Shown here: positions 11,554-62,360 of the stretch, one piece after another
How the letters are laid out: each line of letters begins with the position of its first letter
Numbering within the stretch: the stretch's first letter is position 1
Origin: Tridacna crocea
Taxonomy: Eukaryota; Mollusca; Bivalvia; Cardiida; Cardiidae
Assembly: GCA_943736015.1 (NCBI GenBank)
Contig: OX031064.1
Span: forward strand, 36,197,361-36,261,360
Direction: 5' to 3'
DNA: 64,000 bases
Notes under the pieces: generated by a model
Told to the model about the DNA's origin: nothing
Database searches by the model: none
What the model saw: only the letters and a program-made list of their open reading frames with translations
Made by a program: the position numbers and the translations under genes

Positions 11554-11822
11554 ATATGGAGTGCAACACGCGAAAAGGTGCATTCGGACATTTGCGTAAA
11601 GTGTCGTCTCGGATTAGCCTGCGCAGTCCGCGCAGGCTAATCCGAGACGGCACTTTACGACTACATTAGATTTTGTGTTACAGTAGACTTGCGTAAAACA
11701 TAAAATCACATAAAATCGGAGAGTGTCGTTTCGGATTAGCCTGTGCGGACTGCACACGCTGATCAGAGACGACACTTTACGCAAATGTCCGAATGACCCT
11801 TTTCGCGTGTTGCACTCCATAT
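11554..11822. mobile_element. Double-hairpin MITE family E
   Basis: Perfect inverted ends (ATATGGAGTGCAACACGCG and its complement CGCGTGTTGCACTCCATAT) enclose two separate hairpins built on GGATTAGCCTGCGC-N5-GCGCAGGCTAATCC and its relatives, joined by an AT-rich spacer. Flanks are TATA-like, suggesting a TA or TATA target. Other copies are at 16047, 17248, 34989, 41849 and 43721. No coding capacity. Confidence 0.88.
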
Positions 11823-11825
11823 GTG

Positions 11826-12088
11826 ACCTGCCATGCCAAAAAGGATATTCTGGGAATTCCATACATCCATTTGATGAGAAAAGATCGAAGATTGTGCTGG
11901 TCAATTTAAATTGATAGTTCAGAAATGATTGTAAAGTACGGAAGAATGACCGATTTTTATGCAGAAAATATCGTTTAAGCGAAAAGTGTTAACTCCGGTC
12001 AGCCTACGCAATCCACGCAGTCTGACCATGATCGACACTGTGCACAGTTCCCAGATGGTCATTTTTTGACTGACGGGTCACATATATG
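11826..12088. mobile_element. MITE family P, copy 1
   Basis: Ends GTGACCTGCCATGCC..AAAAAGG and CATTTTTTGACTGACGGGTCAC are inverted. Inside is a stem GGTCAGCCTACGC-N5-CGCAGTCTGACC-like hairpin. Co-linear with 22275-22540. It directly abuts the E element at 11554. Confidence 0.75.
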
Positions 12089-12381
12089 TAATTCTCATGA
12101 CTGGCATGCAGTTAATAAGGTTACACAATAATGTCTTCCATGATGTTTTAGTTGATGCATAATATATTAATTTTAAAAGAAAATCTCATCTTCCAGGTGT
12201 TATTGAGTATTTACACTTGTTTTATTGTTGCGGCCTAGATGTACAATAATGAATAAAAATGTTAAATGATGTATTGACATCAATTTTTGCTCTCTTTGTT
12301 TTATTTCATGACTCTTACTGTTCTGGTATTTACACCAGCTAGTGAGTGTGACTATTTTCACCCCCATCAACTACAATCAAG

Positions 12382-12610
12382 TTAACCCTTTACCCCATAA
12401 GGCATTTCTATGGTATCTCTAATTGACCCTAAATAACAGCAAGGATGAAGCCGTTTCTTATGTGTGTATGACACCTTTTGATAGTGTAGAAAACATTGTG
12501 GCAAAAGATGAAATTGCTCATCACGAGCAATTTCACCTTTTGCCACAATGTTTTCCAAAGGCTCCTACAAGCAATGCGTAGAAATGAGTATCTATGGAGA
12601 AAAGGGTTAA
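12382..12610 (+). mobile_element. TTAA MITE family B, chained to A
   Basis: Complete B copy with a near-perfect core (GAAATTGCTCATCACGAGCAATTTC). Its right TTAA (12607-12610) is also the left TTAA of the following A copy. Confidence 0.9.
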
Positions 12611-12822
12611 CTCTTTACCAAACAAAGAAATTGAAGACTGGTCCAAATTGAAAACATGCGCTGATGACAAAATAATCGTAACTCAAAATTTGAAATTTAA
12701 TTCCAGCACGGCAGAAAAACATTGTGGGAAAAAAGAGAAAATGCTGGTAAGCAGCATTTTCTCCTTTTCCCACAATGTTTTCAATAGGCTTCTACCTCGG
12801 GGATTGTTTGGTAAAGGATTAA
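12607..12822 (-). mobile_element. TTAA MITE family A, chained to B
   Basis: TTAACTCTTTACCAAACAAAG...GGTAAAGGATTAA. The core is intact except for an extra A (GGGAAAAAAGAG) and one change at the centre (GGTAAGC). The short arm lost about 10 bp. Confidence 0.85.
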
Positions 12823-12824
12823 GG

Positions 12825-13194
12825 TTTGTTTGGTTGTTTGTCTTTAAAGCCCAGGAGAGATTGGAGATGGTAATGTAATGTAAAAAGGCCCAGATGAGTG
12901 TATCTAGGGCCATTGTGGTCCTCTTCGTTCTTCTTTTCAGATCTAGAAACAGGGCAACAGAACTCTGGTATATTTGGGCACGTACAGTTCTAGTTCTCAT
13001 CCACTATTGTGATTGGTTAAAAATTCATATCTCCGCCAAATGACAGAGCCTGGGGGCTTCTTTATCCTAATTTCCTAAATTAGCAATATGAGATTTTCTA
13101 GGCAATAGAAAAAACACAAGTATTTCTATTAAAAAGTTATTTTTTGAGAAAAAAATCTCCTTATCTGTCATTATAGACTAAAGATCAGACTGCA
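12825..13194. other. No gene seen
   Basis: Mixed sequence following the A copy, including a minus-strand frame that is mostly MITE complement. Nothing supportable. Confidence 0.4.
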
Positions 13195-13275
13195 TGTTCT
13201 GTGATGTCTGATCTTGCACCATACCCGCTGCAAAAAGCGCTCTTAGTGGCACTTAGCAGCTTAAGGGTAATAGCA
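13180..13275 (-). mobile_element. Family D fragment
   Basis: GATCAGACTGCATGTTCTG..ATGTCTGATC hairpin followed by CAAAAAGCGCTCTTAGTGGC, ACTTAGCAGC and TTAAGGGTAA. These are the right side of an inverted D copy. Confidence 0.55.
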
Positions 13276-13554
13276 CGTTATCGTAGATGCACTGCCCATT
13301 TGATACTTAAATTGAGCTTGGCCGCCGCAACTTCTCAGGACTATCGATATCACAGTTGATATAAGATTAGACTCCAAGTTTTATACAGTCTGAACATGAT
13401 TACTACTGTTCTCAAAGAGCAAATTCAATATTACTGGAGGCACCAGAGGGGTTAACACTTGTCTAGATCTAATGAATGTCTTATTATGAATTATTCAAGA
13501 TTTTTTACCCTTTAATTCCCCCGGGCGAAAACAGGGACTTTAGCAAATGGCATA

Positions 13555-13605
13555 GATAAAGATCAGACTGCACACTACATGCAGTCTGATCTTTTATCCA
13601 TGTTT
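13555..13605. repeat. Family D stem fragment
   Basis: AAAGATCAGACTGCAC and GCAGTCTGATCTTTT form the D-type stem with a variant loop. The D arms are absent. Confidence 0.5.
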
Positions 13606-13751
13606 GTTTGGTCTAGCTCATTTGAATTTTGGTGCAACATATTTTCAGCCAATGAAAGCAATCAAGTTGATCTATTAGGTGTGGAAGGAATGTACTATTT
13701 ACCAGATGACAAATTATTTTTCCAAATTGAAACCAATCTTTGACAACTGAT

Positions 13752-13976
13752 TTAACCCTTTCCCAAATGACAAATTTTCGACTGTCCCAGACTCAAAGTG
13801 TTTGCAGATGACAATTTTGAATCTGACGAGAGTAGCAGAAAGTTTTCCTATAGGCTGGAAAACACAGTGGGAAAAGGATAAATTGCTCATTACAAGCAAT
13901 TTCTCCTTTTCCCACAGTGTTTTCTAAAGACTTGTACTGCAGACACGTAAAAACCAAGGCTTGTTTGGGAAAGTAA
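13752..13976 (-). mobile_element. Family C MITE, right end truncated
   Basis: TTAACCCTTTCCCAAATGAC at the left and GGCTTGTTTGGGAAAGTAAAG at the right, where the terminal GGGTTAA is replaced. The core is of C type with paired changes at the centre (GCTCATTACAAGC). Confidence 0.78.
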
Positions 13977-13999
13977 AGGTAGCTGAAGTGGTGGATTTT

Positions 14000-14385: not shown

Positions 14386-14515
14386 TCGCAGTGATATAAA
14401 CTATATAATGAAACTGGCAATAAACACCATTTACATGGTTTGTTTTTTAAAATGGTGTTTATCACCGGTTTCGATACACCATTTATATCGATGCCACCAG
14501 GACACCTATGTATGT
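14385..14515. repeat. Inverted repeat
   Basis: AAACACCATTTACATGG, AAATGGTGTTTATCACCGG and ACACCATTTATATCG are alternating inverted copies of an ACACCATTTA motif, flanked by CCTGGTCGCAGTGATATAAA and ATATCGATGCCACCAGGAC, which are themselves inverted. A small foldback element. Confidence 0.6.
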
Positions 14516-16046: not shown

Positions 16047-16314
16047 ATATGGCCTGCAACACGCGAAAAGGAGCATTCAGACGTCTGCGTAAAGTGTCGT
16101 CACGGATCAGCCTGGGCTGTCCAGAACAGGCTAATCAGAAACGACACTTTCCGTTCTAACGTGATTTTCTGTTTGGCAAAAGTCTACTGTAGCACAAAAT
16201 CTAATGCAGTCGTAAAGTGCAGTCTCAGATTAGCCTGCGCAGACTGCGCAGGCTGATCCGAGACGACACGTTACGCAAATGTCGCAATGCCCCTTTTCTG
16301 GTGTTGCAAGCCAA
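16047..16314. mobile_element. Double-hairpin MITE family E
   Basis: ATATGGCCTGCAACACGCG...GTGTTGCAAGCCAATTAT with two hairpins. The first hairpin is imperfect (CAGCCTGGGCTGTCC); the second is intact (GATTAGCCTGCGC-N5-GCGCAGGCTGATC). Confidence 0.85.
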
Positions 16315-16344: not shown

Positions 16345-16440
16345 TGAAGATCAAAGATCAGACTGCACAGAATGTGCAGTCTGATCTTTGATCTATAATG
16401 TTTGCAAAAATCCAACCAAGTCGCTAAGCAGCTTATGTAG
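16345..16440 (-). mobile_element. Family D fragment
   Basis: AAGATCAAAGATCAGACTGC...GCAGTCTGATCTTTGATC stem followed by AAGTCGCTAAGCAGCTTA, the D terminal arm in reverse. Left arm missing. Confidence 0.6.
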
Positions 16441-17247: not shown

Positions 17248-17516
17248 ATATGGCTTGCAACACATGAAAAGGGGCATTTGGATATTTGCGTAAAGTGCCA
17301 TCTCGGATCAGCCTGCGCAATCCGCGCAGGCTGATCCGAGATGGCACTTTACGACTACTTTAGATTTTGTCCCTCAGTAGACATGCATGAAACAGGAAAA
17401 TACATTAAAACAGAAAGTGTCGTTGCAGATCAGCCTGTGCGGACTGCGCAGGCTGATCCGAAACGACACTTTACGCAAATGTCCAAATGTCCTTTTTACC
17501 GTGTTGCAAGCCATAT
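17248..17516. mobile_element. Double-hairpin MITE family E, inserted at a palindrome centre
   Basis: ATATGGCTTGCAACACATG...CGTGTTGCAAGCCATAT with two near-perfect hairpins (GGATCAGCCTGCGC-N5-GCGCAGGCTGATCC). The TATA-like flanks agree with a TA-type target duplication. It is the best preserved E copy in the window. Confidence 0.88.
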
Positions 17517-19505: not shown

Positions 19506-19542
19506 GTCTGATCCTTATACATACAGAATTATTGATAAATAG

Positions 19543-19655
19543 CGAAAAGTTTCGGCTCAGGTCAGCCTGCGCGGACTGCGCAGGCTGACCTGGGTCGATT
19601 CTTTTCGCATATGCATTAAGCCCCCTTTATTCACAGAGTATGGCTCATTTATTCT
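19543..19655. mobile_element. MITE family O, right part
   Basis: GGTCAGCCTGCGC-N5-GCGCAGGCTGACC stem followed by GGGTCGATTCTTTTCGC, TTAAGCCCCCTTTATTCAC and AGAGTATGGCTC, which matches the right end of the fuller copy at 37649-37888. Confidence 0.75.
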
Positions 19656-22274: not shown

Positions 22275-22540
22275 ATGTAACTCATCAAGCAAAAAGTGAC
22301 CATCTGGGAATTCTGTACATCTATTAGATGAAAATAGATCAACGATAGTGCAGTTCAGTTTAAGTTGATAATTCTAAAATGACTGTATAACAAGGTACAA
22401 TGACCATTTTTCATACCGAAAATGTCATTAAAGCGAAAAGTGCCAAGCCTGGTCAGCCTGCGCAATTCGCGCAGTCTGACCAGGGTTGACACTTTTCGCA
22501 GTTCCCAGAAGGTCCCTTTTTGCTTGACGGTTCACATGCA
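22275..22540. mobile_element. MITE family P, copy 2
   Basis: GTAACTCATCAAGCAAAAAG and GTCCCTTTTTGCTTGACGG are terminal inverted repeats, with GACCATCTGGGAA / TTCCCAGAAGGTC just inside. A hairpin GGTCAGCCTGCGC-N5-GCGCAGTCTGACC lies near the right end. Co-linear with 11826-12088. Confidence 0.82.
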
Positions 22541-23579: not shown

Positions 23580-24011
23580 TTAACTCTTTACCAAACGACA
23601 AAATTGTATATTAGTCCAAATTGGTAGCATTTACAGACGACAAAATTAATGATTTCGACTGAAAAAAATGCCATTTGTTTTTTGAAGGATAGAAAACAAT
23701 GTGGGAAAAGGAGAAAATGCTGGTTATCAGCATTTTCTCCTTTTCCCACAATGTTTTCAAAAGGCATTTTCTGTGTAGCAGAGCTCCAGATAAGAGGGAG
23801 TGATGGTATCCTAAATCCATTATTTTTCTTCCAAACACTTTATTGTGGGTACTCATTTGAATCGTCTCGACGAGACGATTCTAATGAGTACCCATAACAT
23901 AGGGTTTTCAGCACTATAACAAACATTTTTAGTTTTGAAATGAAAATCACTCCCTCTATCTCGAGCTCTGTGTAGGTCGTTAAAAGTCGGGATTTTGTGG
24001 TAAAGAGTTAG
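23580..24011 (-). mobile_element. Family A MITE interrupted by a hAT-like element
   Basis: Left arm TTAACTCTTTACCAAACGAC, a perfect core palindrome, then the short arm is cut after GGCATTTTCTGTGTAG and resumes at GTCGTTAAAAGTCGGG, ending GGTAAAGAGTTAG. Without the insert it would be about 230 bp. Confidence 0.88.
23779..23967. mobile_element. hAT-like MITE (element I) nested in an A copy
   Basis: Starts CAGAGCTCCAGATAAGAGGG and ends inverted (CACTCCCTCTATCTCGAGCT). It is flanked by the 8-bp direct repeat CTGTGTAG (23771-23778, 23968-23975). An 8-bp duplication and a CAGAG/CAGGG start fit the hAT superfamily. The centre holds a hairpin, GGGTACTCATTTGAATCG-TCTC... and its complement. The left end could also be read with a 5-bp duplication (TGTAG). 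Confidence 0.75.
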
Positions 24012-25254: not shown

Positions 25255-25380
25255 CAGGGCTCCAGATCAGAGTGAGCGATGGTATTGCAAATCAATTATT
25301 TCTCTTCCAAACCCTATGTTGTGGGTACTCATTAGAATTGTCTCTATGAGACAATTTTAATGAGTACCCATAACAAAAGG
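25255..25380. mobile_element. hAT-like element I, left part
   Basis: CAGGGCTCCAGATCAGAGTG, then TCTTCCAAACCCTATGTTGT and the hairpin GGGTACTCATTAGAATTGTC / GACAATTTTAATGAGTACCC. Co-linear with 23779-23920; the right end is missing. Confidence 0.68.
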
Positions 25381-25384
25381 TTTA

Positions 25385-26241: not shown

Positions 26242-26372
26242 TGAAGGGTAGAAAACATTGTGGGAAAAGGAGAAAATGCTGGTTACCAGCATTTTCTCCT
26301 TTTCCCACAATGTTTTCTAAAGGCTTCTTTCTCAGGGGCGTCAAAAGTAGGGATTGTGTGGTAATGGGTTAA
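26242..26372 (-). mobile_element. Family A MITE, left arm missing
   Basis: Begins inside the long arm at GTGAAGGGTAGAAAACATTG, keeps a perfect core and the short arm to GGTAATGGGTTAA. The truncation point meets the tail of the tRNA-like repeat. Confidence 0.78.
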
Positions 26373-28172: not shown

Positions 28173-28440
28173 TTAACCCTTTACCCCATTAGGCATTTCT
28201 ATGGTATCTGTTATTGACCCTAAATAACAGCAAGGATGAAGCTGTTTCTTATGCATATATGACACCTTTTGATAGCATGGAAAACATTGTGGCAAAAGGT
28301 GAAATTGCTCGTCACGAGCAATTTCACCTTTTGCCACAATGTTTTCCAAAGGCTCCTACAAGCAATGCGTAGAAATCAGTATCTATGGAGTAAAGGTTAA
28401 ATTCTGTGTAGAAATGAGTATCTATGGAGTAAAGGGTTAA
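28173..28440 (+). mobile_element. TTAA MITE family B with duplicated 3' end
   Basis: Perfect B core (GGTGAAATTGCTCGTCACG-AGCAATTTCACC). The last 40 bp (TGTAGAAATGAGTATC, TATGGAGTAAAGGG, TTAA) occur twice, so there is a TTAA at 28397 as well as at 28437. Confidence 0.88.
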
Positions 28441-31867: not shown

Positions 31868-32031
31868 TAGAATAATCAACTGGGTATTTTTTATATGAAA
31901 AATATCTCACTCAGATGCGTCGTAAGGCGTTAAAAAAACTCGTGCTGCGCACTCGTTTTTTCAACGCCTAACAACGCATCCTCGTGAGATATTTTTCATA
32001 TCAAAAACAACCAGTTGATTATCCTCTATTT
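31868..32031. mobile_element. Composite element F+Q, copy 1: F palindrome
   Basis: AATAATCAACTGGGTATTTT...AACAACCAGTTGATTATCC. The arms contain ATGAAAAATATCTCAC, GATGCGTCGTAAGGCG and a centre AACTCGTGCTGCGCACTCG. The whole 165 bp folds on itself. Confidence 0.82.
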
Positions 32032-32524: not shown

Positions 32525-32824
32525 CATTGAAAACAAAGAGATCTATGTTAAATGTTTATTATATAATAATAAAGCTATTTGCTGCACAACGTTAATTTTG
32601 ATTAACGTCTAAGCTTCAGAAGAGCTTACATCTAATTCGAAATTTCACTCTTAAACAATATGCAAAGCAGTGAGAAAAACGTGGAAATTGCATTTTTTTA
32701 AAAGATTTTTTCGTATTGAACCATAAAAGACTTTCACAATTTACTGTTCATAACTTCTAACACCATCTATTACTTTGCAAAAGATCTAACTTGTTTTCTA
32801 TATTGTTTTATCTATTTTTGTAAC

Positions 32825-33018
32825 CTGCTTAGCGCCACTCACTGGCCTGTTGCAGACAGTGTAGATTAAGATCAGACTTCACAGAACGTGCAATCTGATC
32901 GTTGATCTACACTGTCCGATAAGAAGAAAACTTTCCCTGGAAAATACATTTTAAAAAACACTATTTGGGTTTTTATCATTTGCTTGAAAGTTTAACATAA
33001 CTTATCTAGCAGGATATA
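32825..33018 (+). mobile_element. Family D MITE
   Basis: TTAGCGCCACTCACTGGCC, GACAGTGTAGATTAAGATCA, stem AGATCAGACTTCACA..CGTGCAATCTGATC, CACTGTCCGATAAG, TGGGTTTTTATCATTTG and TAGCAGGATAT. TTAA ends are lost. Confidence 0.7.
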
Positions 33019-34336: not shown

Positions 34337-34555
34337 TTAACCCTTTGGCGCTAAGCGCGACTCGCTGACCTTTTGCGGACGGTGCAGATCAAGATCAGAC
34401 TGCACAAAACGTGCAGTCAGATCTTTGATCTACACTGTCCGGTAAGGGGATATTATTTCCCTACACATAACTTTGAATCAGCAATATTTTTTTGGTTATA
34501 AATATCGAAACGAAAATTTAATTTTAGTTCAATGATTTAGCAGGATAAGGTTTAA
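34337..34555 (+). mobile_element. TTAA MITE family D, chained to A
   Basis: TTAACCCTTTGGCGCTAAGC-GCGACTCGCTGACC at the left and TTAGCAGGATAAGG-TTTAA at the right. Stem GATCAGACTGCAC-N5-GTGCAGTCAGATC. The right TTAA (34552-34555) is the left TTAA of the next A element. Confidence 0.88.
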
Positions 34556-34780: not shown

Positions 34781-34988
34781 TAGATCTACAAAGAGTATAG
34801 ATTCAGGCCAGCCTGCGCTTTCTAGATGGATACTTTTTGCCACTGCGCAATTTTCTGCACCTTAAAGGACCATTTTACCTCATAATTCAGTCGTAAACAA
34901 AATAGGTTTTGTCGATCCATGATTATGTAATGACGTACTTGTTATCATGCGGGAATATCTGAGCACAGAGCACATATACACATATATT

Positions 34989-35256
34989 TATGACCTGCAG
35001 CACGCAAAATGGGGCATTCTGACACTTGCGTAAAGTGTCGTCTCGGATCAGCCTGTTGCAGTCCGCGCAGGCTAATCCAAAACGACACTTTCCGTTTTTA
35101 TGCAATTATTTGTTTTGCGAAAATCTCCTGAAACACAAAATCTAATGTAATCGTAAAATGCCGTCTCGGATTAGCCTGCGCGGACTGCACAGGTTGATCC
35201 GAGACGACACTTTACGCAGATGTCCGAATGTTCCTTTTTGCACGGTGCAAGCCATA
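34989..35256. mobile_element. Double-hairpin MITE family E just downstream of the TRIM/NHL stop
   Basis: TATGACCTGCAGCACGC...GGTGCAAGCCATATA. The two hairpins are GGATCAGCCTG(TT)GCAGTCC-type and GGATTAGCCTGCGC-N5-TGCACAGGTTGATCC. It ends 55 bp from the stop codon of the minus-strand gene and so probably lies in its 3' UTR. Confidence 0.85.
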
Positions 35257-35310: not shown

Positions 35311-36381
35311 TCAGGACATTGGTCTACCATAGAATCCGTTCGGACATTCACTGCAAGGGTCAGTTATGACCATATTGCCACCATTGGGGTTAAAGCACAG
35401 AGCTCTTGGAGTCTTGATACCATGCTTGCTACGACAGATGGTCTCCTGGTAGACACCACCACTAGATACTCGCTGTATATTTGCAGACTCTTTGCCACAT
35501 ATATACAGCCAATTGTTTCTATCTATTGCGACCCCTGTCGGGTACTCAAGTTCACGATGAGAGTAGACAAACTTGAGTTCACCCATTATTGAAAATGCTA
35601 GGACCGCTTCGACAGCGGCGTCTGAAATATATATCACAGTATTGAAATAATTTACACAAACATGGAGGGGGCATTTGAAAAAGTTTTCACCCGTATCGGA
35701 GTACTGTATAATGGACAGTAACTGACCGAATTCGGAGAAAATTCGGACGGATGGATACCTAGACCATGGATCACAAGTTAAAACGAAGTTATTCATAATC
35801 TTACAGATCCCAAAACATTCACAGTCTGTGTTGAACGAACCGTCGATTCGTAAATGGGGTTCACACTCCACAAAGAAAACAGTGTTCAATTTAGGAACAG
35901 TGACTGCTGCTCGTCCGTCACACACTTGTACCACATCCCAAGGATTTTTATCGAATTCTAATTTATCACACACAACGCCGTGTTTGTTAAACATTTTTAA
36001 GACGCCATTATTCCAATCTGTCAACAGAAGGTCTTCCGGTGTGACGTAAGCACATCCGGTAAAGCAGCATTTGGGCATATTCTCTTCCTCTGTCCCTGTG
36101 AATATTTCTAACTCTGTCGATGAAGACCCTTCCTCGTCCCCTTCCTGACCCGGAAGACAAAGAAAAGGGGGCAACAGCGGAGTATCGAGGTTTGTGGTAA
36201 CGTATGCATATTTACTTATGTTGTAGATTTCCTCGAATTCAGCAGTTGGTTGAAACTCATAACAATAGTGACAGCTGGGCGGAAGTTCTTCCGTCATAGA
36301 TTTTGTGAGAGCTGTTGTTTTGTCTATGGCCTCTGATATAACTTTCTTGTAATTTTCGAAGTCCTTATAATCCTCTGGTAC
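35311..36381 (-). CDS. TRIM/NHL-type protein, terminal exon (coiled-coil end plus beta-propeller)
   Basis: The exon starts after TTTCTTACAACAG (36382 side) and reads VPEDYKDFENYKKVISEAID first, completing the coiled-coil region, then runs 357 codons including the stop. A low-complexity acidic linker (GQEGDEEGSSSTELEIF) precedes a C-terminal part of about 250 residues with NHL-like blades: PEDLLLTDWNNGVLKMF, YPTGVAIDRNNWLYICG, NIQRVSSGG and TPRALCFNPNGGNMVITD. This is the pattern of the propeller of TRIM-like proteins common in bivalves, which often act as ubiquitin ligases or RNA/protein scaffolds. Ligase activity cannot be claimed because no RING is seen. The internal ATG at 36297 is not the real start. 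The phase-0 junction matches the exon at 52002-52127. Confidence 0.88.
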   Translation of the reverse strand, partial: VPEDYKDFENYKKVISEAIDKTTALTKSMTEELPPSCHYCYEFQPTAEFEEIYNISKYAYVTTNLDTPLLPPFLCLPGQEGDEEGSSSTELEIFTGTEEENMPKCCFTGCAYVTPEDLLLTDWNNGVLKMFNKHGVVCDKLEFDKNPWDVVQVCDGRAAVTVPKLNTVFFVECEPHLRIDGSFNTDCECFGICKIMNNFVLTCDPWSRYPSVRIFSEFGQLLSIIQYSDTGENFFKCPLHVCVNYFNTVIYISDAAVEAVLAFSIMGELKFVYSHRELEYPTGVAIDRNNWLYICGKESANIQRVSSGGVYQETICRSKHGIKTPRALCFNPNGGNMVITDPCSECPNGFYGRPMS

Positions 36382-36437
36382 CTGTTGTAAGAAAATGAGA
36401 AAAAAATGATTGATTCCGAAATTAATATATCAAGAAA

Positions 36438-36651
36438 TTAACCTTTATCTCGTGAAATAAGTATGCTGAACTTTTCAAGCTGATAGTAAAAAAACCCAAA
36501 TTTAACTATTGCAAAGGTATTTCTAACGGAATAATATCTCCTGATCGGCTGGCGTTGATCAAAGATCAGACTGCACGTTTTGTGCAGTCTGATCTTGATC
36601 TACACTCTCCGCAAAAGGTCAGTGGGTGGCGTATAGCAGCGTAAGGGTTAA
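36438..36651 (-). mobile_element. TTAA MITE family D, complete
   Basis: TTAACCTTTATCTCG...CGTAAGGGTTAA; stem GATCAGACTGCAC-N5-GTGCAGTCTGATC. It is inverted relative to 34337 and lies 57 bp inside the last intron of the TRIM/NHL gene. Confidence 0.85.
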
Positions 36652-36867
36652 TAAAAAAAATCGAGCCTTATCCACCTTAGAATAGGAACCAAGTGAATCA
36701 ACAGGGTGTATACATAACAATTTAGACTTGTAGAATGTTTATGCAATGTAAAAATGTACGTTACCAAGAAAACAATTCAATAATTCAAATACGTCGAGCA
36801 GGATTACGACCAGACTTCAACTGTATTGTAGTAACTTCCAATAAACAAATTAATAAACACTGTGCAT

Positions 36868-37195: not shown

Positions 37196-37379
37196 AGCAA
37201 TTAGAACAATATCTACCAGAGTACTATCAAAATTCAAAATGAAGATAAATAAATACATAAAAGAAGATAAATAGATAGATAGATGAGAAAAATAAATAAA
37301 TAAATAAATACTATCAAAAATGCAAAGAAGTGGACTTGTACAGGTAAAGGAACCCCATGCATCAAGACGTGCCGTCTGA

Positions 37380-37620: not shown

Positions 37621-37648
37621 TCATAATTTGCGATATAAATGTATATCT

Positions 37649-37888
37649 GAGCCATGCTGCTTGAAAAGGGGGCTTAAAGCATTTGCAAAACGTATCGACC
37701 CATGTCAGCCTGCGCGACTGCGCAGTCTGACATGAGTCGATACTTTTTGCTATTTTTTTCTGCATGTGAAGGACCATTCTATCTGCATATTTAATCAATT
37801 ATAAGAATGAATTCATTATATGAATCTGGGAAGAAGTGTCATGTATTAATGGAGATGTATTAAGCCCCCTTTTGGCAGAGCATGGCTC
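37649..37888. mobile_element. MITE family O, fullest copy
   Basis: Inverted ends GAGCCATGCTGCTTGAAAAG-GGGGCTTAA and TTAAGCCCCCTTTTGGCAG-AGCATGGCTC. Inside is GTATCGACCCATGTCAGCCT-GCGCGACTGCGCAGTCTGAC, a stem followed by TTTTTGC and AGGACCATTCTATCTGC. Confidence 0.82.
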
Positions 37889-39104: not shown

Positions 39105-39365
39105 GACGTGTTGCGTGATTTTTGTCGCTTTAGAACAATAATATAGATTTACTAGATCTATATAAGAGGCAATCTCGACAAATCCATTAAAAATCTAGTA
39201 CAGGTCGAAGTCTTTGACGTTTGTTTACGTATACATACGCAGAACTCTCACAAAAGTACATCAACTCTTAACAGCACATAAGAAAAAATTCACCCCGTAT
39301 TCTGTTAAATAAGCGTAAAGAAACTTTCTAGATCTATTTCAAATTTTGGCAGGAAAATATCTACT

Positions 39366-39465
39366 CATCGGACAGGGTAGATTAAAGATCAGACTGCACA
39401 CTCTGTGCAGTCTGATCTTTGATCTACACTGTCCGCGAAAGGTCCCTAAGTCGCTCTAAGTTTTG
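39366..39465 (-). mobile_element. Family D fragment
   Basis: ATCGGACAGGGTAGATTAAA, a perfect stem (GATCAGACTGCAC-N5-GTGCAGTCTGATC) and ACTGTCCGCGAAAGGTCCC-TAAGTCGC. The outer arms are missing. Confidence 0.7.
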
Positions 39466-39608
39466 TAGGCTGAAATGGGATGTGTCTGCAACTACAAATA
39501 TAATGTTTTTGAAATTGTAGATGCAAAATTTTACGAGTGAAGTAGATAATTCTGGTTACCGATTCTGGTTACCATCATTTTGATTCAATTCTCCTCCCAA
39601 AAACGTTT

Positions 39609-40192: not shown

Positions 40193-40395
40193 CTGGGGCC
40201 GTATTCACCAACCATTCTTGAGAATATTCTCAGTCTTATTCTCCAAGGTTTTCTACATTTGTAAGTAATACAACTTCTGATTGGCTAAACCGAATGGTTA
40301 AGCCAATCAGAAGTTGTGTTACTTACAAATATAGAAAATTCTGGAGAATAAGACAAAGAACGTTCTTAAGACTGGTTGGTGAATATGGCCCCTGT
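40193..40395. mobile_element. Foldback element, near-perfect 200-bp palindrome
   Basis: GGGGCCGTATTCACCAACCA and TGGTTGGTGAATATGGCCCC are the outer ends; the arms continue through AGTCTTATTCTCCAAGG, TTGTAAGTAATACAACTTCT and GATTGGCTAAACCGAATGG to the centre. A relative is at 49738-50035. Confidence 0.85.
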
Positions 40396-40854: not shown

Positions 40855-41095
40855 AATCAGAGGCGGTGTAATGCAGAAAAAAATCACCCTACCCGACAAA
40901 ATGACCCGGTTCATTATTCTACGTAGAGAAATGACCCCAGAAGTCATTTCACTACTAAGAAAAATGACCCGGGTCATTATTCTACGTAGAGAATTGACCC
41001 ATGGATCATTCTTCTACGTAGATAAATGACCCATGGGTAATTCCTTTACGTAGAGAAATGACCCATGGGTTATTTTGTAATGGGGGTAATTTCTC
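40855..41095. repeat. Self-complementary minisatellite, ~42 bp
   Basis: About five units alternate AAATGACCC(AT)GGGTCATT-type palindromes with CTACGTAGAGAAATG. Each unit is thus made of two small palindromes. The left edge GGTGTAATGCAGAAAAAAATC and the right edge GGTAATTTCTCTGCATTACAGC are inverted, so the array lies inside a small terminal-repeat element. Confidence 0.72.
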
Positions 41096-41848: not shown

Positions 41849-42115
41849 ATGACTTGCAACACGCGAAAAGGGACACTCGGCAATTTGCGTAAAGTGTCGT
41901 CTCGGATCAGCCAGCGTAGTCCGTGCAGGATGATCCGAGACGACACTTTCCGAGCATGTGTGATTTTCTGTTTCATGCAAGTCTACTTTAGGTCAAAATC
42001 GAATGTTGGCGTAAAGTGCCATCTCGGATTATCCTGCGCCGTCTGCTCAGGCTGATCCGAGACGACACTTTACGCAAATGTCCGAATGCCTATTTCCCCG
42101 TATTGCACGCCATAT
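41849..42115. mobile_element. Double-hairpin MITE family E
   Basis: GATGACTTGCAACACGCG...GTATTGCACGCCATATG with hairpins GGATCAGCCAGCGT-N5-GTGCAGGATGATCC and GGATTATCCTGCGC-N5-GCTCAGGCTGATCC. Confidence 0.83.
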
Positions 42116-43720: not shown

Positions 43721-43988
43721 AATTGGCTTGCAACACGCGAAAGGGACATTTGGAGTTTTGCGTAAAGTGTCGTCTCGGATCAGCCTGTGGAGTCTACGCA
43801 GGCAAATCCGAGACGGTACTTTACGACTAAATTAGATTTTATTCTACAGCAGACTTGTCCAAAACAGAAAATTACTTGAAAACGGAAAGTGTCGCTTCAG
43901 ATTAGCCTGCACGGACTTCACAGGCTGATCCGGAATGACGCTTTACGTAAATATCCGACTGTCCCTTTTCGTGTGTTGCAGGCCAGTT
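43721..43988. mobile_element. Double-hairpin MITE family E
   Basis: AATTGGCTTGCAACACGCG...GTGTGTTGCAGGCCAGTT with hairpins GGATCAGCCTGTGG-N5-CGCAGGCAAATCC and AGATTAGCCTGCAC-N5-CACAGGCTGATCC. Confidence 0.83.
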
Positions 43989-43995: not shown

Positions 43996-44212
43996 TTAAC
44001 TCTTATCCTGCTGATTAAGTTTAAGATGCCTTTAATATGTTGATAGAAAAATATCCAAAAGTTTCTATTTCAAACTTATTTCTTCGAAGAAAAAATATCA
44101 TGTTATCGGACAGAGTAGATCAAAGATCAGACTGCACGTTTCGTGCAGTCTGATCTTGCTCTACACTGTCCGAAAAAGGTGGGTGAATTGCGCGTAGCAG
44201 CCTAAGGCTTAT
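43996..44212 (-). mobile_element. Family D MITE
   Basis: TTAACTCTTATCCTGCTGA...GCGTAGCAGCCTAAGGCTTAT; stem GATCAGACTGCAC-N5-GTGCAGTCTGATC. The right flank is TTAT. It lies between E and the satellite leader. Confidence 0.8.
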
Positions 44213-44217: not shown

Positions 44218-44370
44218 ACAGTATATTTATTTCATAGTTTTAAGATTTGCTTGCGTTAAAATTGATTTAATTATATGATCATAAATGTTTGACTCTACTA
44301 CACTATGGAACGTATTTACCTCACGTAATGCTAGATTTAACTGGGTCACGATATATTTATTTAACACATA
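44218..44370. repeat. Satellite leader sequence
   Basis: Non-tandem block preceding the array; co-linear with 37432-37590. Confidence 0.75.
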
Positions 44371-45380
44371 CTAGACCTGAATGCACTAGGACATATTTAC
44401 GTCATAGATGCCAGACTTGTCCTGAGGTATGCTTGTACACCTCAAATCAGCTAGACCTGACTGCACTAAGACATATTTACGTCATAGATGCCAGGCTTGT
44501 ACTGCGGTATGCTTGTTCACCTCAAATCAGCTAGACCTGACTGCATTAAGACATATTTACGTCATAGATACCAAGCTCGTACAGCAGTAAGCTTGTAAAC
44601 CTCAAATCGGCTAGACCTGAATGCACTAAGACATATTTACGTAATATATACCAGGCTTGCACTGCGGTGTCCTTGTACACCTCAAATCAACTAGACCTGA
44701 CTGCACTTAGACATATTTACGTCATAGATACCAGGCTTGCACTGCGGTGTCCTTGTACACCTCAAATCAGCTAGACCTGAATGCACTAAGACATATTTAT
44801 GTCTTAGATACCAGGCTTGCACTGCGGTATGCTTGTTCACCTCAAATCATCTTGATATGACTGCACTAAGACATATGTAGATGCCAGGCTTGTACTCCAG
44901 TATACTTTTACACCTCAAATCACTTAGACCTCAATGCACAAAGACATATTATATACGTCATAGATGCCAGGCTTGTACTGCCTCAAATCAACTAGATCTG
45001 ACTGCACTAATACATATGTAGATGCCAGGCTTGTACTGCGGTATACTTGTACACCTCAAATCATCTTGACCTGACTGCACTAAAGACATATGTAGATGCC
45101 AGGCTTGTAGTGCGGTATACGTGTACACTTCAAATCAGATAGACCTGAATGCAGTAAGACATATTTAGCTCATAAATGCCAGGCATGCAATGCGGTATAC
45201 TTGTACACCTCAAATTCATCTTTACCTGACCGCACTAAGACATATTTACGTCATAGATGCCAAGCTTGTACTGCGGTGTGCTTGTACACCTCAAATCAGC
45301 TAGACCTGAATGTACTAAGACATATTTAGGTCATAAATGCCAGGCTTGCACTGTGGTATACTTGTACACCTTAAATCATT
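44371..45380. repeat. 80-bp satellite array, about 13 units
   Basis: The first seven units start at exact 80-bp intervals (44371, 44451, 44531, 44611, 44691, 44771, 44851) with CTAGACCTGAATGCACTAAG, ACATATTTACGTCATAGATG, CCAGGCTTGTACTGCGGTAT and GCTTGTACACCTCAAATCAG. Later units are shortened by small deletions (ACATATGTAGATGCC) and restart near 44923, 44990, 45064, 45139, 45219 and 45300. It ends at ACCTTAAATCATTTTTGCC. Confidence 0.93.
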
Positions 45381-45384
45381 TTTG

Positions 45385-46080
45385 CCGTAACAAGGGCATG
45401 GCCTTTGATCAGACTGTGTGATCTTAATCATTTTATCTTGCCCTACTTTCTTATATACAATACAAATCATTAAAGTTTTATAAAGCCCGTGTATAATCAA
45501 TAGATAGATCCTAATCAATGGTTTGTGCCCTTGGCTTCTCAGGGATGAAGTTCAATGATCTATCTCAAGTGCGTCAGAAATTCTCTTTCTATTGGTAATT
45601 AGAACTAAAAAAATCAACATCTCCACCTTTTCTTGTACAAATACGACTGAATACGCTAACCTTGATGCTAACCTTGAAATCTGGATAGTTTTATGAGGGA
45701 AAAGCGCTTGCTTATGAAAAGCAATTTTCCCGTATCGTTTCCTTTCCTTCTTAAAAAGAGGCTTTTCCCCTATCCCTGTGTACATATGTCATTGTTGTAA
45801 TTTGTTACATATTAAGACGGTATAGAAATCAATTAAAATACGCTTGACTTTTACACTGCGAGTGCTGTTTATAAGCACGAATCGACAAGTTCGTTAATTA
45901 ACCAATAACATGTGATCATGCCCAACACGTGATCTGGGTAAAATGAAAATAAATGAACAAAGACCAAATGATCCTATTTTTGCAAAGTCTGAAAAAAAAA
46001 AGAAATAGAAAAATGAAGAACTATCCTGTGTCAAAAAATGCCCCTCTTATCACGATGTTCTCCTCTCTTTCATTATATAT
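45385..46080. other. No supported gene
   Basis: Contains AAAGCGCTTGCTTATGAAAA-GCAATTTTCCC near 45705, a weak C-like core remnant. Otherwise unassigned. Confidence 0.35.
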
Positions 46081-46302: not shown

Positions 46303-46502
46303 TTAACCCTAAGATTGCTAAACGCGATTCACTGACCCTTTGCGGACAATGTAGATCAAGATCAGACTGCACAGAACGTGCAGTCTGATCTTGAATCTAC
46401 ACTGTCCGATAAGGAGATGTTTTTCCCCAAAAAACATAAGTTTTAATTGGCAATATTTGGGTTTTTTTACTATCGATTGTGATAAACTAGGATAAAGGTT
46501 AA
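46303..46502 (+). mobile_element. TTAA MITE family D, chained to A
   Basis: TTAACCCTAAGATTGCTAAAC-GCGATTC, a perfect stem (GATCAGACTGCAC-N5-GTGCAGTCTGATC) and AACTAGGATAAAGGTTAA. Shares TTAA 46499-46502 with the next element. Confidence 0.87.
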
Positions 46503-46914: not shown

Positions 46915-47078
46915 ATAGAGGATAATCAACTGGTTATTTTTGATATGAAAAATATCTCACGAGGATGCGTTGTTATGCGTTGAAAAAACGAGTGCGCAGC
47001 ACGAGTTTTTTTAACGCCTTACAACGCATCCGAGTGAGATATTTTTCATATAAAAAATAACCAGTTGATTATTCCATT
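46915..47078. mobile_element. Composite element F+Q, copy 2: F palindrome
   Basis: AGAGGATAATCAACTGGTTA...AATAACCAGTTGATTATTCC; centre AACGAGTGCGCAGCACGAG. Inverted with respect to copy 1. Confidence 0.85.
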
Positions 47079-48587: not shown

Positions 48588-48816
48588 TTAACCCTTTCCC
48601 AAACGATAAATTTTAGACTCTTTCAAACTCAAACAGTTTGCAGACGACAATTTCAAATTTGATAAAAATGGCAGAAAGTTCTCTAAATGGATAGAAAACA
48701 CTGTGGGAAAAGGAGAAATTGCTCATTACGAGCAATATCTCCTTTTCCCACAGTGTTTTCAAAAGACTTGTACTGCAGACACGTAAAAACCAGGGCTTGT
48801 TTGGGAAAGGGTTTAA
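48588..48816 (-). mobile_element. TTAA MITE family C, chained to D
   Basis: TTAACCCTTTCCCAAACGAT...TTGGGAAAGGGTTTAA; core with one change (CAATATCTCC). Confidence 0.87.
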
Positions 48817-48915
48817 CTGTTAAGCGCGATTCACTGAACTTTGGCGGACAGTGTAGATCAAGATCAGACTGCACAGAACGTGCAGTCTGATCCTGATCTA
48901 AATTATCCGATGAGG
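48813..48915 (+). mobile_element. Family D MITE, right half missing, chained to C
   Basis: TTAACTGTTAAGCGCGATTC, stem GATCAGACTGCAC-N5-GTGCAGTCTGATC and AAATTATCCGATGAGGAG, where the match to D stops. Confidence 0.75.
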
Positions 48916-49520
48916 AGACATGTACATTCTGCCACTGGCACATGCATATTCGTATTGACATAAACTTGTTTGAACTAAAAGGAAAAAACAACAACAACTA
49001 TAGAGATAAAATCTACACTGGGATGATGAACCCAGTTATAAAATCTATCGACCTTACTCTAGTTACAGCATTGTGCAATAATTAACGTATTTTATATGAA
49101 TAGAAACAGATAATTCTGGAAGAACAATCATGCACTAATATCAATTGTTTTCAACTTATTTGCCGCCAGTTTTTTTTTCGGGTCTATAACCCGAATCTCA
49201 CGGTAAAAAAGTTTATGCAGTCATCGTTTTGTATCAAATCGCAGATTTTGTATATCAAACATCAGAATACATGTCATGTGCAGCCTGATCTTGATCTATG
49301 TCGTTCACTAAGACTTATTATATTTTATAACTCGTGATAAAAAGGTCAAAACATGCATTTGTAATTCATACAATGGTGTTAATAGCTTCTACCTTTGCCA
49401 CAGTCACAGGTTTCTGTCGAAATGATGAAATCGAAAAAAAATATAAACAAGAAAATATTGTGCCGCATGCGGCGCCGCCACAATAACTGAAGCTATGGTT
49501 TTTCATTGTTCTTTGGTTTT

Positions 49521-49737: not shown

Positions 49738-50035
49738 CAGTCCTTGTCAATGAGAAAGTAACAGAACTTCTGATTGGCTAAACCATTTGGTTTAGCCAAT
49801 CAGAAATTCTGTTACTTACACAGTCCTGGGTCCGTATTCACCAACCGTTTTCTATGAACATTCTTAGTCTTATTCTTCAAAATTTTGTCAATGTGAAAGT
49901 AACAGAACTTCTGATTGGCTAAACCATTTGGTTTAGCCAATCAGAACTTCTATTACTTTCACAGTTAGGAAATTTTGAAGAATAAGACTAAGAATGTTCT
50001 TAAAAATGGTTGTTGAATACGGACCCAGAAGGTAC
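49738..50035. mobile_element. Foldback element with a duplicated hairpin tip
   Basis: TGGGTCCGTATTCACCAACC and TTGAATACGGACCCA bound an element of about 205 bp at 49828-50031, related to 40193-40395. Immediately left, 49752-49820 carries a second copy of its tip (AGTAACAGAACTTCTGATTG-GCTAAACC and the inverted arm), so a hairpin lies both inside and outside the element. Confidence 0.8.
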
Positions 50036-50894: not shown

Positions 50895-51306
50895 CATGGC
50901 AACTGCAGCACACGAAAAGGACCATTCCGACTTGTAAAGTGTCGTATCGGATCAGCCTGCGTAATCGGCGCAGGCTAATCCGAAACGACACTTTCCATTT
51001 TTCTGTACTTTTGTACGGTAGCACAAAATTTATTATTATACTGCAAAGAAATTTCTCGTGATCTGATTGGATAATATGCCCCGAACATATATATATCATG
51101 TACACTGGCAAAACCAACGTAATAGAAGCTTCCCTTTTGGGAGCCCCCTATACATGACTACGCAATCAAAAAAAAAAACTTCCAAAATGGCGGTGTCAGT
51201 CAAGATAAAGATCGCCTCGGATTAGTGTGTGCGGACTGTGCAGGCTGCTCCGAGACGACACTTTACGCAAATGACCGAATGCCCCTTTTCGCGCTACAAG
51301 GCATAT
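50895..51306. mobile_element. Family E element carrying a ~190-bp insert
   Basis: Left hairpin GGATCAGCCTGCGT-N5-GCGCAGGCTAATCC and right hairpin GGATTAGTGTGTGC-N5-TGCAGGCTGCTCC belong to E. Between them TACTGCAAAGAAATTTCTCG, ATGCCCCGAACATATATA, CATGTACACTGGCAAAACC and CAAAATGGCGGTGTCA replace the normal spacer. The same insert is at 53960-54770. Confidence 0.72.
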
Positions 51307-51410
51307 GTAATTTTTTGTTTGTGAGAAACTTATCCTGTTTGCCATGGTTATTGTCAATAATATAGGAAAAGACTTCGTTTGAGCCGTGGTGTGTAAAAAT
51401 GGGGCTTAAT

Positions 51411-56292: not shown

Positions 56293-56317
56293 CTGTAAAA
56301 TAGATTTGATGTTGTCG

Positions 56318-56475
56318 GTTTACTTCAAAAACCTCGTAACTACAGCTTGTTTCAAGCTGTAGTTACGAGGTTTTTGAGGTAAACCGACGATATGTCTATT
56401 CATGTTTCCTCGACGCTGTAGTTACGAGGTTTTTGAAGTAAACCGACGATATGTCTATTCATGTTTCCTCGAATT
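56318..56475. repeat. Palindrome with a 58-bp tandem duplication
   Basis: TACTTCAAAAACCTCGTAAC-TACAGCTTG pairs with CAAGCTGTAGTTACGAGG-TTTTTGAGGTA. The right arm plus ACCGACGATATGTCTATTC-ATGTTTCCTCGA then repeats in tandem. A related palindrome is at 60495-60578. Confidence 0.8.
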
Positions 56476-59219: not shown

Positions 59220-60045
59220 CCATTTGAATGGTATAAAAACGAACCTATCTGAATATTTTACAAAACACACGTGGGAAAAAAAATAATTGAAGAATTTAAA
59301 AATGATTTTAACTAGTTTTTCCATTAAACCAATGTTAAATTTATCATCTGAAAAAGGTTGAGAGACTGCATAAAATAGAAAGCACGGTCAATTGGAAAGC
59401 ACTTACAAATGAGGCTGAGCTTATTGAAAAACTAGGTTCACAATAACCTACCCTTACGCAGACACTTTATCAGTTGATTGAATACGGTAACTTTCAAGAA
59501 ACATTGCTGGAAAAACAGAAATTGACCTGAGGTATGCCTTCTTTCGTTTCTTTTTGGAATGATACTATTGAATCCCAAAATTGTAGATAATTTATACAAT
59601 GAACCAGCCTTGATAGCACATGTATGGAGATGATGAAATGTGTTTGTAACATAAATACACAGTACAAGGAAAATAATTTGGGCGTTCGAAGAGACACACC
59701 ACTAATGAAATAATTTTGTCTGCGCATGTCATAATCTTCAAAGATTCGACCTGTCTGCTCTGCGCAAGTTTGAACTCTCATAATTTCGCAAATAGAACAC
59801 AAAACTAGGATTTAAACATATTTTGTAAGCTTTCTTTTGAAATAAAAATATTTACATTTAATTTTACTTGAGTTATTTACACTCCCGAAACAATTCGAAA
59901 TGGCCGCCACGTACGATAAAGTTCGTCAGTGTTTTTTTGCGAGATTTACATGTTATAAACGAATTCTACAAGCTTTTTAGTTAATGAAAGGTTTCATAAT
60001 TTGTGTTTGGTTACTTAAAGTTAATCACATTTCGCTGAAATACAG
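59220..60045. other. Unassigned; shared motif at 59700-59765
   Basis: Apart from the block shared with 52190, no repeat or gene is supported. The 102-residue minus frame at 59494-59802 covers that shared block and has no domain. Confidence 0.35.
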
Positions 60046-60049
60046 ATTA

Positions 60050-60475
60050 AGCCATCTTCGCAAGCCAAGACTGACGATTCACTACCGTTACTCTACCCTT
60101 GGCGGATCGAGCTTGATTTTTACATTCACCCGATACGCTTTTTCATTGGATGCAGCCAGCTCTAACTGCAACGAATGAAATCGCTCGTAGCATTTCATCT
60201 TTGATAAAAATAGAACAACGTCCCTACCTTTCGAATAGAAGGTGAACATGGAAACCCACGAGGATGTCTGCTTATCGCTTCATGTGTATTCGTAAGCGGT
60301 TTGTAAAACGATATTACATTGGTTTTTAGAAATATGATGTAAAGGGGGGGGGGGGGGTAATAACCAGCATCCAATAGAGGGCGCATCGCAGGAATCTCGA
60401 AATCGGGTTCAATCCGCCAAGGTAAGATCCACGTAGTGATCGTAACCTTGGCTCGCGAAGATGAGATTAAACCGC
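60050..60475. mobile_element. Terminal-inverted-repeat element G, copy 2
   Basis: CATCTTCGCAAGCCAAGACT at the left, CTTGGCTCGCGAAGATGAG at the right, and inner TTGGCGGATCGAGCTTG / GTTCAATCCGCCAAGG. Co-linear with 24270-24835 but lacks about 130 bp of the middle. Contains a G-run of 15 at about 60344. Confidence 0.8.
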
Positions 60476-60494
60476 CGCACAGAAAGGCAGTATA

Positions 60495-60578
60495 TCGTCG
60501 GTGTACTTCCAAAACCTCGTAACTACAGCTTGCTACAAGATGCAGTTACGAGGTTTTGGAAGTACACCGACGATATAG
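60495..60578. repeat. Palindrome related to 56318-56475
   Basis: ATCGTCGGTGTACTTCCAAA-ACCTCGTAACTACAGCTTG and its inverted arm ending GGTTTTGGAAGTACACCGAC-GAT. Confidence 0.82.
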
Positions 60579-60579
60579 C

Positions 60580-61310
60580 GCTTTATCTTTACAACTGGAA
60601 AATCTACAACAGACTTGAGACGGTACGGTGTACAATGAATGTCAAAATATGGAAAAAAATCACCTTAGCGTCTCATTATTTCGCATACACCCATCCCCGT
60701 ATGCCTGGCAAAAGAAGGTCTCAAATCGCAGCTGTTAGCCTATTACCCAAGCATGTAGGGCTATTAAAATAAATGGCCGGTTCACAGGTTACATGCTAGC
60801 CGATCATAGATGACTGAATGGCACCAGACAGCGTTTTATTGAGAAAACGTTTATTCTATTTCAAAGTAACAGTAACGGTTGTTGTTTTGAAAAAATACTC
60901 CGCTTCTATACGCAGACTGTCAATATTATATAGACGTGTATTTGTAGAATGCATTCTAGCGGGAGATAATGGATTCCAACTTGATACTGTATTTGTACAC
61001 TATGGCATTCAATAAACACTCCCAATAAGTATAATTTTTGTCCTCCTATACAAAAGCGCAATACTCTTTTCATCATCAAGTACCGTAGTGGTTAATCATA
61101 TGTAGATGGTATATTCATCTGTTTTATTCCGCCACAGATCTATCGGGACAACTTCCGGCACATATTGACTGTGCCTTAAAATATACATGTATATCAAACA
61201 TTCAAAAGTTTATCCGTCTAAAATCCTTTGTCAACCAAACAATAGTACAAACTTGGACATCAAATAAATCAGTTCACACGAACTTGTTGAAATAGAACAC
61301 GGAATGCAAA
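60580..61310. other. No gene found
   Basis: Contains CAAGCATGTAGGGCTATTAA-AATAAATGGCCGG and CAGCGTTTTATTGAGAAAACG-TTTAT, blocks also present near 52445-52560 in the same order, so this is a diverged dispersed repeat. No coding support. Confidence 0.4.
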
Positions 61311-61539
61311 TTAACCCATTGCCACACAATCCCTACTTTTGACACCCCTGAGAAAGAATCCTTTAGAAAACATGGTGGGAAAAGGAGAAAATGCTGGTAA
61401 CCAGCATTTTCTCCTTTTCCCACAAAGTTTTCTACCCTTCACAAAACAAATTTCAAATTTTCTGTCACTTTTATTTTGTCGTCTGCAAATGCTTTCGATT
61501 TGTACAAGCCTAAGATATTGTCGTTTGGTAATGAGTTAA
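61311..61539 (+). mobile_element. TTAA MITE family A
   Basis: TTAACCCATTGCCACACAATC...GGTAATGAGTTAA with a near-perfect core; same subgroup as 56800-57030. Confidence 0.88.
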
Positions 61540-61685
61540 ACCAGTTCACACAAACTTGGTGCAGATGGAACTCTTGTACTACTGAAACATCTAGATCTAA
61601 ATATCGAAATTTTACACGTCATTTTTCGACGAAGCTTTTTCACACATGTACGTCCTTTGTTCGTGTAAAAGATAGTCCTTGTTTG

Positions 61686-61910
61686 ACTCTTAACCACATA
61701 ATCCAGCGTTTTAACAACATGGAAAAAGGAAAGAGCAAAGCTTTTGAAACACTGTTGGAAAAGGAGAGGTCGCAGGAGGTCAGCATTTTCTCCTATTCCC
61801 TTTTTTTCTTCCTGCTAAAGACAAATCAAAACAATTTACCTACATTTGATTTGTATTCAGCAGTTCTCTGATGCTGGACAAGTCCATAACTTTTAAGTAA
61901 ACGGTTTAAA
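61686..61910 (+). mobile_element. Degenerate family A MITE
   Basis: CTTAACCACATAATCCAGCG, AACACTGTTGGAAAAGGAG, GTCAGCATTTTCTCC, GGACAAGTCCATAAC and AAGTAAACGGTTTAA. Core centre replaced. Confidence 0.6.
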
Positions 61911-62244
61911 GCAGCTTTACAGCGATCATTTTGCTTGTCTGCAAAAGGCTGTTTTTGATATACTGAGGAGGCGTGTTTTCACGCAGCATGGTTACACGTT
62001 AACGTTGGCGGAACAAAGGAAAATAGCTGGTCAACTGTGATGTCTGGCCGATACATTTTAAACCCTTTGTATTGGAATTACCCTAGCGAACATCAAGCCG
62101 GGACTTTAATTCAAACGGCTCAGTATTCTTAACCATTTTCATTGTAGAAATACTCCCACCGAAACCTTACTGCATGCTTTCGGGCTCTTGGCAAAGAACA
62201 CGGTATACACCAAAGGTCAGACTGCACTTTTTGTACAGGATTAA

Positions 62245-62360
62245 GCGTCTGAAAAAAAGTATCGGCTCATGTCAGCTTGCGCAATCCGCGCAGGCTGACC
62301 TGAATCGAAACCTTTTTGCTATACGTAAATGTTTCCGCATGTCGAAGGACCACTCTCGCC
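62245..62360. mobile_element. Family O fragment
   Basis: AAGTATCGGCTCATGTCAGC-TTGCGC-N5-GCGCAGGCTGACC, then AATCGAAACCTTTTTGC and AAGGACCACTCTCG. Confidence 0.62.

Follow-up and report, generated by a model that had tools for sequence, protein, structure and literature searches.

A 67-nucleotide hairpin shared by miniature transposable elements with two kinds of ends in Tridacna crocea

In a stretch of 64,000 nucleotides from the bivalve Tridacna crocea (assembly GCA_943736015.1, contig OX031064.1, positions 36,197,361 to 36,261,360 of the forward strand; hereafter the window), miniature inverted-repeat transposable elements (MITEs) designated D, E, O, P and X carry a long internal hairpin. 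An earlier note on this DNA had described a module of 31 bp, with a 13-bp stem and a 5-nt loop, as common to four unrelated families, namely D, E, O and P. That module proved too small, the 31 bp being only the tip of a 67-nt hairpin common to these elements, and sequence comparison indicates that the hairpins of D, E, O and P are homologous, X carrying a distant version in the same register. Because the ends of D differ from those of E, O and P, one hairpin thus appears to stand behind at least two kinds of ends. We consider it about an even chance (probability roughly 0.5) that D, E, O, P and, distantly, X descend from one 67-nt hairpin that aids MITE transposition in cis. What allows certain MITEs to attain very high copy numbers is a standing question. 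Repeats of a similar kind occur in bivalve molluscs. In several of the MITE families described here, conservation is highest in an internal hairpin, and the changes in it between families are mostly matched on both arms.

The hairpin in the window and in the genome

The reported motif was real: when up to 3 mismatches were allowed, the window contained it 25 times and 100 dinucleotide shuffles not once, and the stems named for E (17306), O (19560), P (22451) and D (e.g., 36564, 39387 and 44125) were exact. A looser scan of the window (at least 20 of 26 stem letters), which had no shuffle control of its own, yielded 43 candidates; that at 37350, with 5 of 13 pairs, is likely due to chance. An unbiased hairpin scan returned 74 hairpins in the window and none in each of five shuffles, and its largest group was family X, absent from the earlier note. 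Past the 13-bp tip the stem continued in D, E, O and P, giving the 67-nt hairpin, one arm having 1 extra base in many D copies, and 67 nt was also the commonest span of the X hairpins in a genome sample (32 of 83). Folding of five example strands with DNA parameters gave -30.7 to -42.5 kcal/mol, with z scores of -9.6 to -17.3.

For the analysis of the stem we aligned 30 of the 43 looser-scan candidates, leaving out decayed, fragmentary or hard-to-orient ones at 6598, 13365, 13561, 22007, 27091, 27624 and 29646 as well as those at 37350, 41194, 49260, 55195, 58546 and 62215. As had been claimed, stem positions 2, 7 and 11 varied mostly as pairs: columns 23/53 were A-U in 25 and G-C in 5 sequences, columns 28/48 were C-G in 15, A-U in 11 and otherwise composed in 4, and columns 34/43 were G-C in 15, A-U in 11, G-U in 2 and otherwise composed in 2. 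The loop, said to vary freely, does not do so. It was asymmetric, reading AGAAC from the short to the long arm in 33 of 44 sampled D copies oriented by their arms alone (6 of 50 copies were not orientable, and most came from one part of contig C1) and AGTCC in 7 of 14 E loops; the two P loops of the window were GGATT and GAATT. Random loops were rejected on these grounds. Since the two P loops run in the opposite sense to those of D and E, the P tip may have been inverted.

The genome comprised 1,048,827,098 bases in 31 contigs, the first 18 of which were 40 to 77 Mb each. In the genome-wide search that had been proposed, the exact general tip pattern was present at 34,855 places; the exact D tip occurred 19,858 times, the exact E/O tip 8,574 times, and the exact X core 173,350 times on one strand and 173,559 times on the other, largely at the same places. 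Reversed control patterns gave no match genome-wide, none was found in the viral contigs scanned, and models of E and D matched 3 of 41 prokaryotic stretches, over the tip only. The motif letters also turned up in published papers, apparently by coincidence. A tRNA search of the window returned nothing, as did a Pfam search of 4 of the 13 listed open reading frames.

Families and ends behind the hairpin

When stem columns were compared in 23 registers, register 0 was the best for all six pairs among D, E, O and P, with p = 5e-5 for D/E, 1e-4 for D/O, 5e-5 for D/P and 5e-5 for every pair of E, O and P. The outer 19 columns alone matched at p ≤ 1e-4 among E, O and P, and at 0.039, 0.025 and 0.003 for D/E, D/O and D/P, respectively; oriented D-outer and E-outer sequences compared over the 24 nt outside the tip gave p = 0.0009. 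A match limited to the 31-bp tip was therefore rejected. A model of one half of E recovered 8 of 11 oriented D copies at E ≤ 10, and in all 8 the predicted orientation scored better, in one by a tiny margin. Over 42 columns and among 17 comparisons made, the X hairpin matched D at p = 1.5e-4, O at 3e-4 and P at 0.003. As a control, we used four further groups of long hairpins in the window that were unlike the 67-nt module (23833-23907 and 25309-25383; 31901-31993 and 46951-47043; 40249-40338, 49756-49817 and 49892-49963; 56314-56388 and 60491-60577). None of 40 comparisons with them over 34 columns fell below 0.01, and a generic palindrome was thus rejected as the source of the match.

Neither four unrelated families nor four independent acquisitions were supported by our comparisons; E, O and P look, from their sequences, like one family that is alike beyond the hairpin. 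With the E-half model, which comprises outer arm, hairpin and inner arm, the top-scoring O and P copies were matched at about 2e-15 (97-115 nt) and the poorer copies between 1e-9 and 1e-5, much of the match being due to the hairpin within the model. Measured from the terminal TG to the hairpin, the outer arm was 37 nt long in 11 of the 14 E halves, in both P copies and in 2 of the 6 O-like copies. Arms were also compared in a small set of 8 E, 13 O, 4 P and 10 D sequences, oriented by a crude score, which gave p = 0.0013 for the outer arms of P/E and 0.0027 for the inner arms of O/P. Against the unity of the three, the outer arms alone gave 0.07 for O/E and 0.08 for O/P; the inner arms gave 0.14 for P/E and 0.80 for O/E.

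That E carries the hairpin twice was confirmed: each element consists of two halves (outer arm, hairpin, inner arm) in an inverted pair, with termini TG...CA and TA-rich flanks, and TTAA was not found at the ends of E, O or P. The window holds six E elements of 263-264 bp, at 11557..11819 (+ strand; tips 11612-11642 and 11734-11764), 16050..16313 (tips 16105 and 16228), 17251..17513 (17306 and 17428), 34991..35254 (35046 and 35169), 41850..42112 (41905 and 42027) and 43723..43985 (43778 and 43900), and one with a longer, rearranged middle at 50901..51309 (50950 and 51220). The P elements, with ends read by eye, lie at 11822..12082, where similar ends stand on both sides and the hairpin (11979-12045) near the right end only, and at 22276..22536 (hairpin 22433-22499). 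For O, a hairpin with outer arm spans 19542..19647 (hairpin 19542-19608), an outer arm with hairpin spans 37648..37750, and an O-like hairpin lies at 62252..62318 near a decayed D-like tip at 62215. The E element ending at 11819 and the P element starting at 11822 are two bases (TA) apart, and one was probably inserted at the edge of the other.

The claim that the families differ in their ends stood for D against E/O/P, D having piggyBac-like TTAA ends. At the short-arm end of D, TTAA fell within a 14-nt window in 14 of 32 scorable arms, as compared with 8.8% at random; the long-arm TTAA and the terminal inverted repeat (TIR) CCCTTA were read by eye, and the best copies had the ends TTAACCCTTAGGCTGCTAA and TTAACCCTTATCCTGCTAA. 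D elements lie on the + strand at 34337..34529 (TTAA and CCCTT ends; tip 34393-34423), 46303..46490 (46360-46390), 32820..33004 (32870-32900), 48808..48999 (48862-48892) and 7966..8145 (8024-8054), and on the - strand at 36457..36652 (36564-36594), 44019..44211 (44125-44155), 39283..39475 (39387-39417), 13081..13270 (13183-13213) and 6069..6254 (6166-6196). A further D tip on the - strand, at 16356..16386, has its long arm displaced by the E element at 16050-16313.

As far as shown by these sequences, D would have only the hairpin in common with E/O/P. Simple vertical descent, in which a single ancestor with slowly changing ends gave rise to both D and E/O/P, would account for the weak match of the D and E outer arms in samples other than the window consensus (p = 0.014) and for the close lengths of the short arms, 35 nt after TTAA in D and 37 nt in E/O/P. 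With the window consensus, however, the same arms gave p = 0.14, the remaining comparisons of D arms with E/O/P gave 0.07 to 1.0, and the target sites differ, so that we hold this descent to be unlikely. Spread of the module between unlike MITEs by recombination or gene conversion, whatever its use, would place one hairpin behind TTAA-type and TG...CA-type ends. When the elements surrounding 56 D hairpins were classed, both arms were of the main type in 38, one arm in 11 and neither in 7; among these 7 off-type hairpins, both arms are common to L101 and L102, and the short arm to L057 and L120, each pair at the limit of 300 shuffles. More than one family may therefore carry the D hairpin. In the search for exact tip patterns, however, tips mixed between D and E amounted to 111 places genome-wide (57 + 54 on the two strands) against 19,858 D and 8,574 E/O tips, and many of those listed have the P-type loop GAATT and may be mutated P copies. 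Recombination is, in our estimate, an improbable main cause.

Family X is the commonest element of the window, with 41 copies aligned (42 centres had been picked by pattern and one of another family dropped). TTAA was found in both end windows in 31 of the 41 copies, while random windows of those lengths contain it in 25% and 41% of cases, and the ends read by eye were CCCTTT or CCCATT on one side and CTCTTT or CTCATT on the other. The stem is the best conserved part of X: divergence from the majority was 6-7% in the stem, 16% at the TTAACCCTTTACC end and 23-31% in the flanks. Singleton rates were similar, 1.3-1.5% in the stem and 1.5-2.6% elsewhere, the flanks lying at 1.5-2.2%. Hairpins with 35 of 35 pairs are exemplified by 26249..26319 and by 28278..28348, the latter of a subfamily with mirrored stem changes. 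The right TTAA of the D element at 46303..46490 doubles, by eye, as the end of an X element.

Changes in the stem pairs and the proposed role of the hairpin

Compensatory change was assessed in the alignment of 30 sequences over 30 pairs, with 500 shuffles and slid controls. Cells changed on both sides numbered 120, as compared with 51.6 in shuffles (0 of 500 as high) and 8 to 21 in slid controls, and 86.3% of cells were paired, whereas shuffles reached 74.8% and slid controls 27 to 34%. Two-sided change affected 19 of 30 pairs (14.5 in shuffles, 4 of 500 as high), and the number of pair types was less striking, at 42 against 37.9 (24 of 500). Between the D and E consensus sequences 19 pairs were the same, 9 mirrored and 2 changed on one side, i.e., 9 of 11 changed pairs were mirrored; between D and O/P, 20 were the same, 8 mirrored and 2 otherwise changed (8 of 10). 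In the window alignment of X, all five stem variants with at least 7 cells were mirrored. Changes private to a single copy within the sample were instead mostly one-armed, the one-armed and mirrored counts being 29 and 4 in E, 32 and 2 in D, and 37 and 2 in X of the window. Private mirrored changes were not in excess of shuffles either in E (4, with 2.2 expected; p = 0.13) or in D (2, with 2.1 expected; p = 0.66). Because changes between families are mostly mirrored and those within families mostly one-armed, pairing is good at the founding of a lineage and lost afterwards, being either renewed or selected at founding. The suggestion that the module is useful was thereby supported only indirectly, by the mirrored changes between families.

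In the descent from one helpful hairpin that we favour, E/O/P would be one MITE family with TG...CA ends in TA-rich places, and D and X would be piggyBac-type (TTAA) MITEs. Spreading lineages would begin with a well-paired hairpin, inserted copies would decay one arm at a time, and the benefit would lie in transposition. Most likely, the palindrome would offer a symmetric site to be bound or bent by a transposase or cofactor, or would fold out as a hairpin. A symmetric protein site is a natural candidate because, according to PMC7351741, a dimer of the C-terminal domain (CRD) of the Trichoplusia ni (T. ni) piggyBac transposase binds a palindromic internal repeat within the transposon end. The two cases are alike in having a palindrome inside a transposon end, dimer-bound in piggyBac, and in the asymmetry of the ends. 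Mirrored changes of letters between families fit a fold at least as well as a protein site. A bolder version, in which a portable module working by its fold rather than its letters passed among MITEs mobilised by different transposases and drove about 208,000 exact-tip copies (34,855 + 173,350), seems to us unlikely.

The same contrast between families and copies would arise without stepwise selection on pairing if one arm were copied onto the other by fold-back synthesis or template switching, which mirrors one-armed differences in a single step. New lineages would then start from reset copies, and one-armed changes within families with mirrored changes between them are the pattern expected of resets at founding. 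The E hairpin at 17289-17353 owes its complete pairing (30 of 30) to two neighbouring changes in the outer arm that otherwise belong to inner arms, and it may represent one such copy event. If arm copying were frequent in inserted copies, however, an excess of private mirrored changes would be expected, and the counts given above showed none in E or D and few in X of the window; frequent arm-to-arm correction in inserted E and D copies was rejected on this basis. We regard arm copying as rather unlikely to be the main explanation.

Selection might also act on the folded RNA, a 67-nt stem in transcripts feeding or evading small-RNA silencing. The z scores of the five strands and the compensatory changes, which are typical of structured RNA, would suit this explanation. 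On the other hand, no Rfam family matched the window at the gathering threshold, and wobble-like mismatches showed no consistent strand bias (GT against CA: E 24 to 23, P 7 to 2, O 2 to 5, D 7 to 21), so that a consistent strand signal was rejected. An RNA role accordingly appears improbable.

Autonomous piggyBac elements were sought in the genome, which contained 118 matches to the transposase domain PF13843; many of them lay in open frames that were roughly 460 to 668 aa long. Among 10 elements examined, 4 had recognisable TTAA-CCC ends. In 88 comparisons made, a single D-like end showed an in-register match of 10 nt to a single autonomous end (p = 0.010, and 0.012 for the other end). Two hairpins near these elements lie outside their ends and are of the X type. 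Short palindromes just inside TTAA ends were seen by eye in the piggyBac flanks L134 and L143.

Several observations weigh against a common hairpin that serves transposition. The match of X to E was weak (p = 0.15 with 40 X copies and 0.049 with 34 well-paired ones), and the distance from palindrome to TTAA differs, being 35 nt in D (8 of 14 copies with TTAA) and 51 nt in the X consensus. In the 4 recognisable piggyBac elements, no long hairpin was found in the stretches from the ends up to the transposase domain. The site bound in T. ni piggyBac, as described in PMC7351741, is 19 bp long at bp 17-33 of the end, far shorter than the 67 nt plus loop found here. Of 11 E elements, 5 had flanks that agreed over 2 bp, and none had flanks that agreed over 4 bp. 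Only 3 of the 7 pairs changed between E and O/P were cleanly mirrored, and two pairs are open in the consensus of E itself. Variants present in at least 2 copies were mostly one-armed: in E, 13 were one-armed and 1 was mirrored, and in D all 7 were one-armed. Among 56 D outer stems, 66 variant types were one-armed and 12 mirrored (31 to 6 for those in at least 2 copies). A larger X sample collected by a looser rule comprised 48 hairpins in the window and 154 with genome stretches; variant types of X in at least 2 copies were one-armed in 129 and mirrored in 15 cases, and those in at least 5 copies of the 154 ungapped hairpins in 61 and 6, although recurrent decay of older X copies must add many one-armed repeats.

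Related transposons and neighbouring repeats

The closest known case is that of the CMITEs of Acropora corals, which are, according to PMC2872659, piggyBac-related TTAA MITEs whose families with different TIRs share an internal region of 75 bases. In the same source this region is better conserved between families than the TIRs, is not found in the related autonomous element save for limited similarity beside the TIRs, and is suspected of a role in transposition (PMC2872659). By that description, D and X would resemble CMITEs in having TTAA, unlike ends and one conserved internal region. The internal region is likewise unexplained by the autonomous piggyBac elements examined here, as in the coral CMITEs. 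In contrast to CMITEs as described there, the module in T. crocea is a hairpin, shows mirrored differences and occurs also in a family that lacks TTAA ends. The text of PMC2872659 contains none of the words "hairpin", "palindrom-" and "stem". New beyond CMITEs are the hairpin, its mirrored between-family differences and its occurrence next to ends of a second, non-TTAA kind. An answer to whether pairing matters would also shed light on the internal region of the coral CMITEs, whose conservation is unexplained. A TIR starting with CC[C/T]T is given as a hallmark in PMC2872659, and the CTCTTT/CTCATT end of X departs from this strict motif.

With piggyBac or TTAA MITEs in general, D and X share TTAA, CYCTT-like ends, shortness, the lack of coding sequence and very many copies, and they differ in that their best conserved part is a long internal hairpin. 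Foldback elements and palindromic MITEs are similar in having long inverted repeats, but the arms that flank the hairpin in D, O, P and X do not form long inverted repeats of each other. Searches of one open-access library found no printed description of the 67-nt hairpin, and the parts seen of PMC10294476 and PMC11707139 held nothing bearing on it.

Several other features were observed nearby. Tandem repeats with a period of 80 bp occupy 44291-45459, and overlapping palindromes with ATGACCCATGGGTCAT-like units at 40900-41075 have similar counterparts at L057:5323-5492. At 35311-36429 on the - strand, a 372-codon open frame gave no Pfam match at E ≤ 0.01. In the genome stretch L050 (498-550), the arms of a hairpin resemble, by eye, inverted copies of a tRNA fragment.

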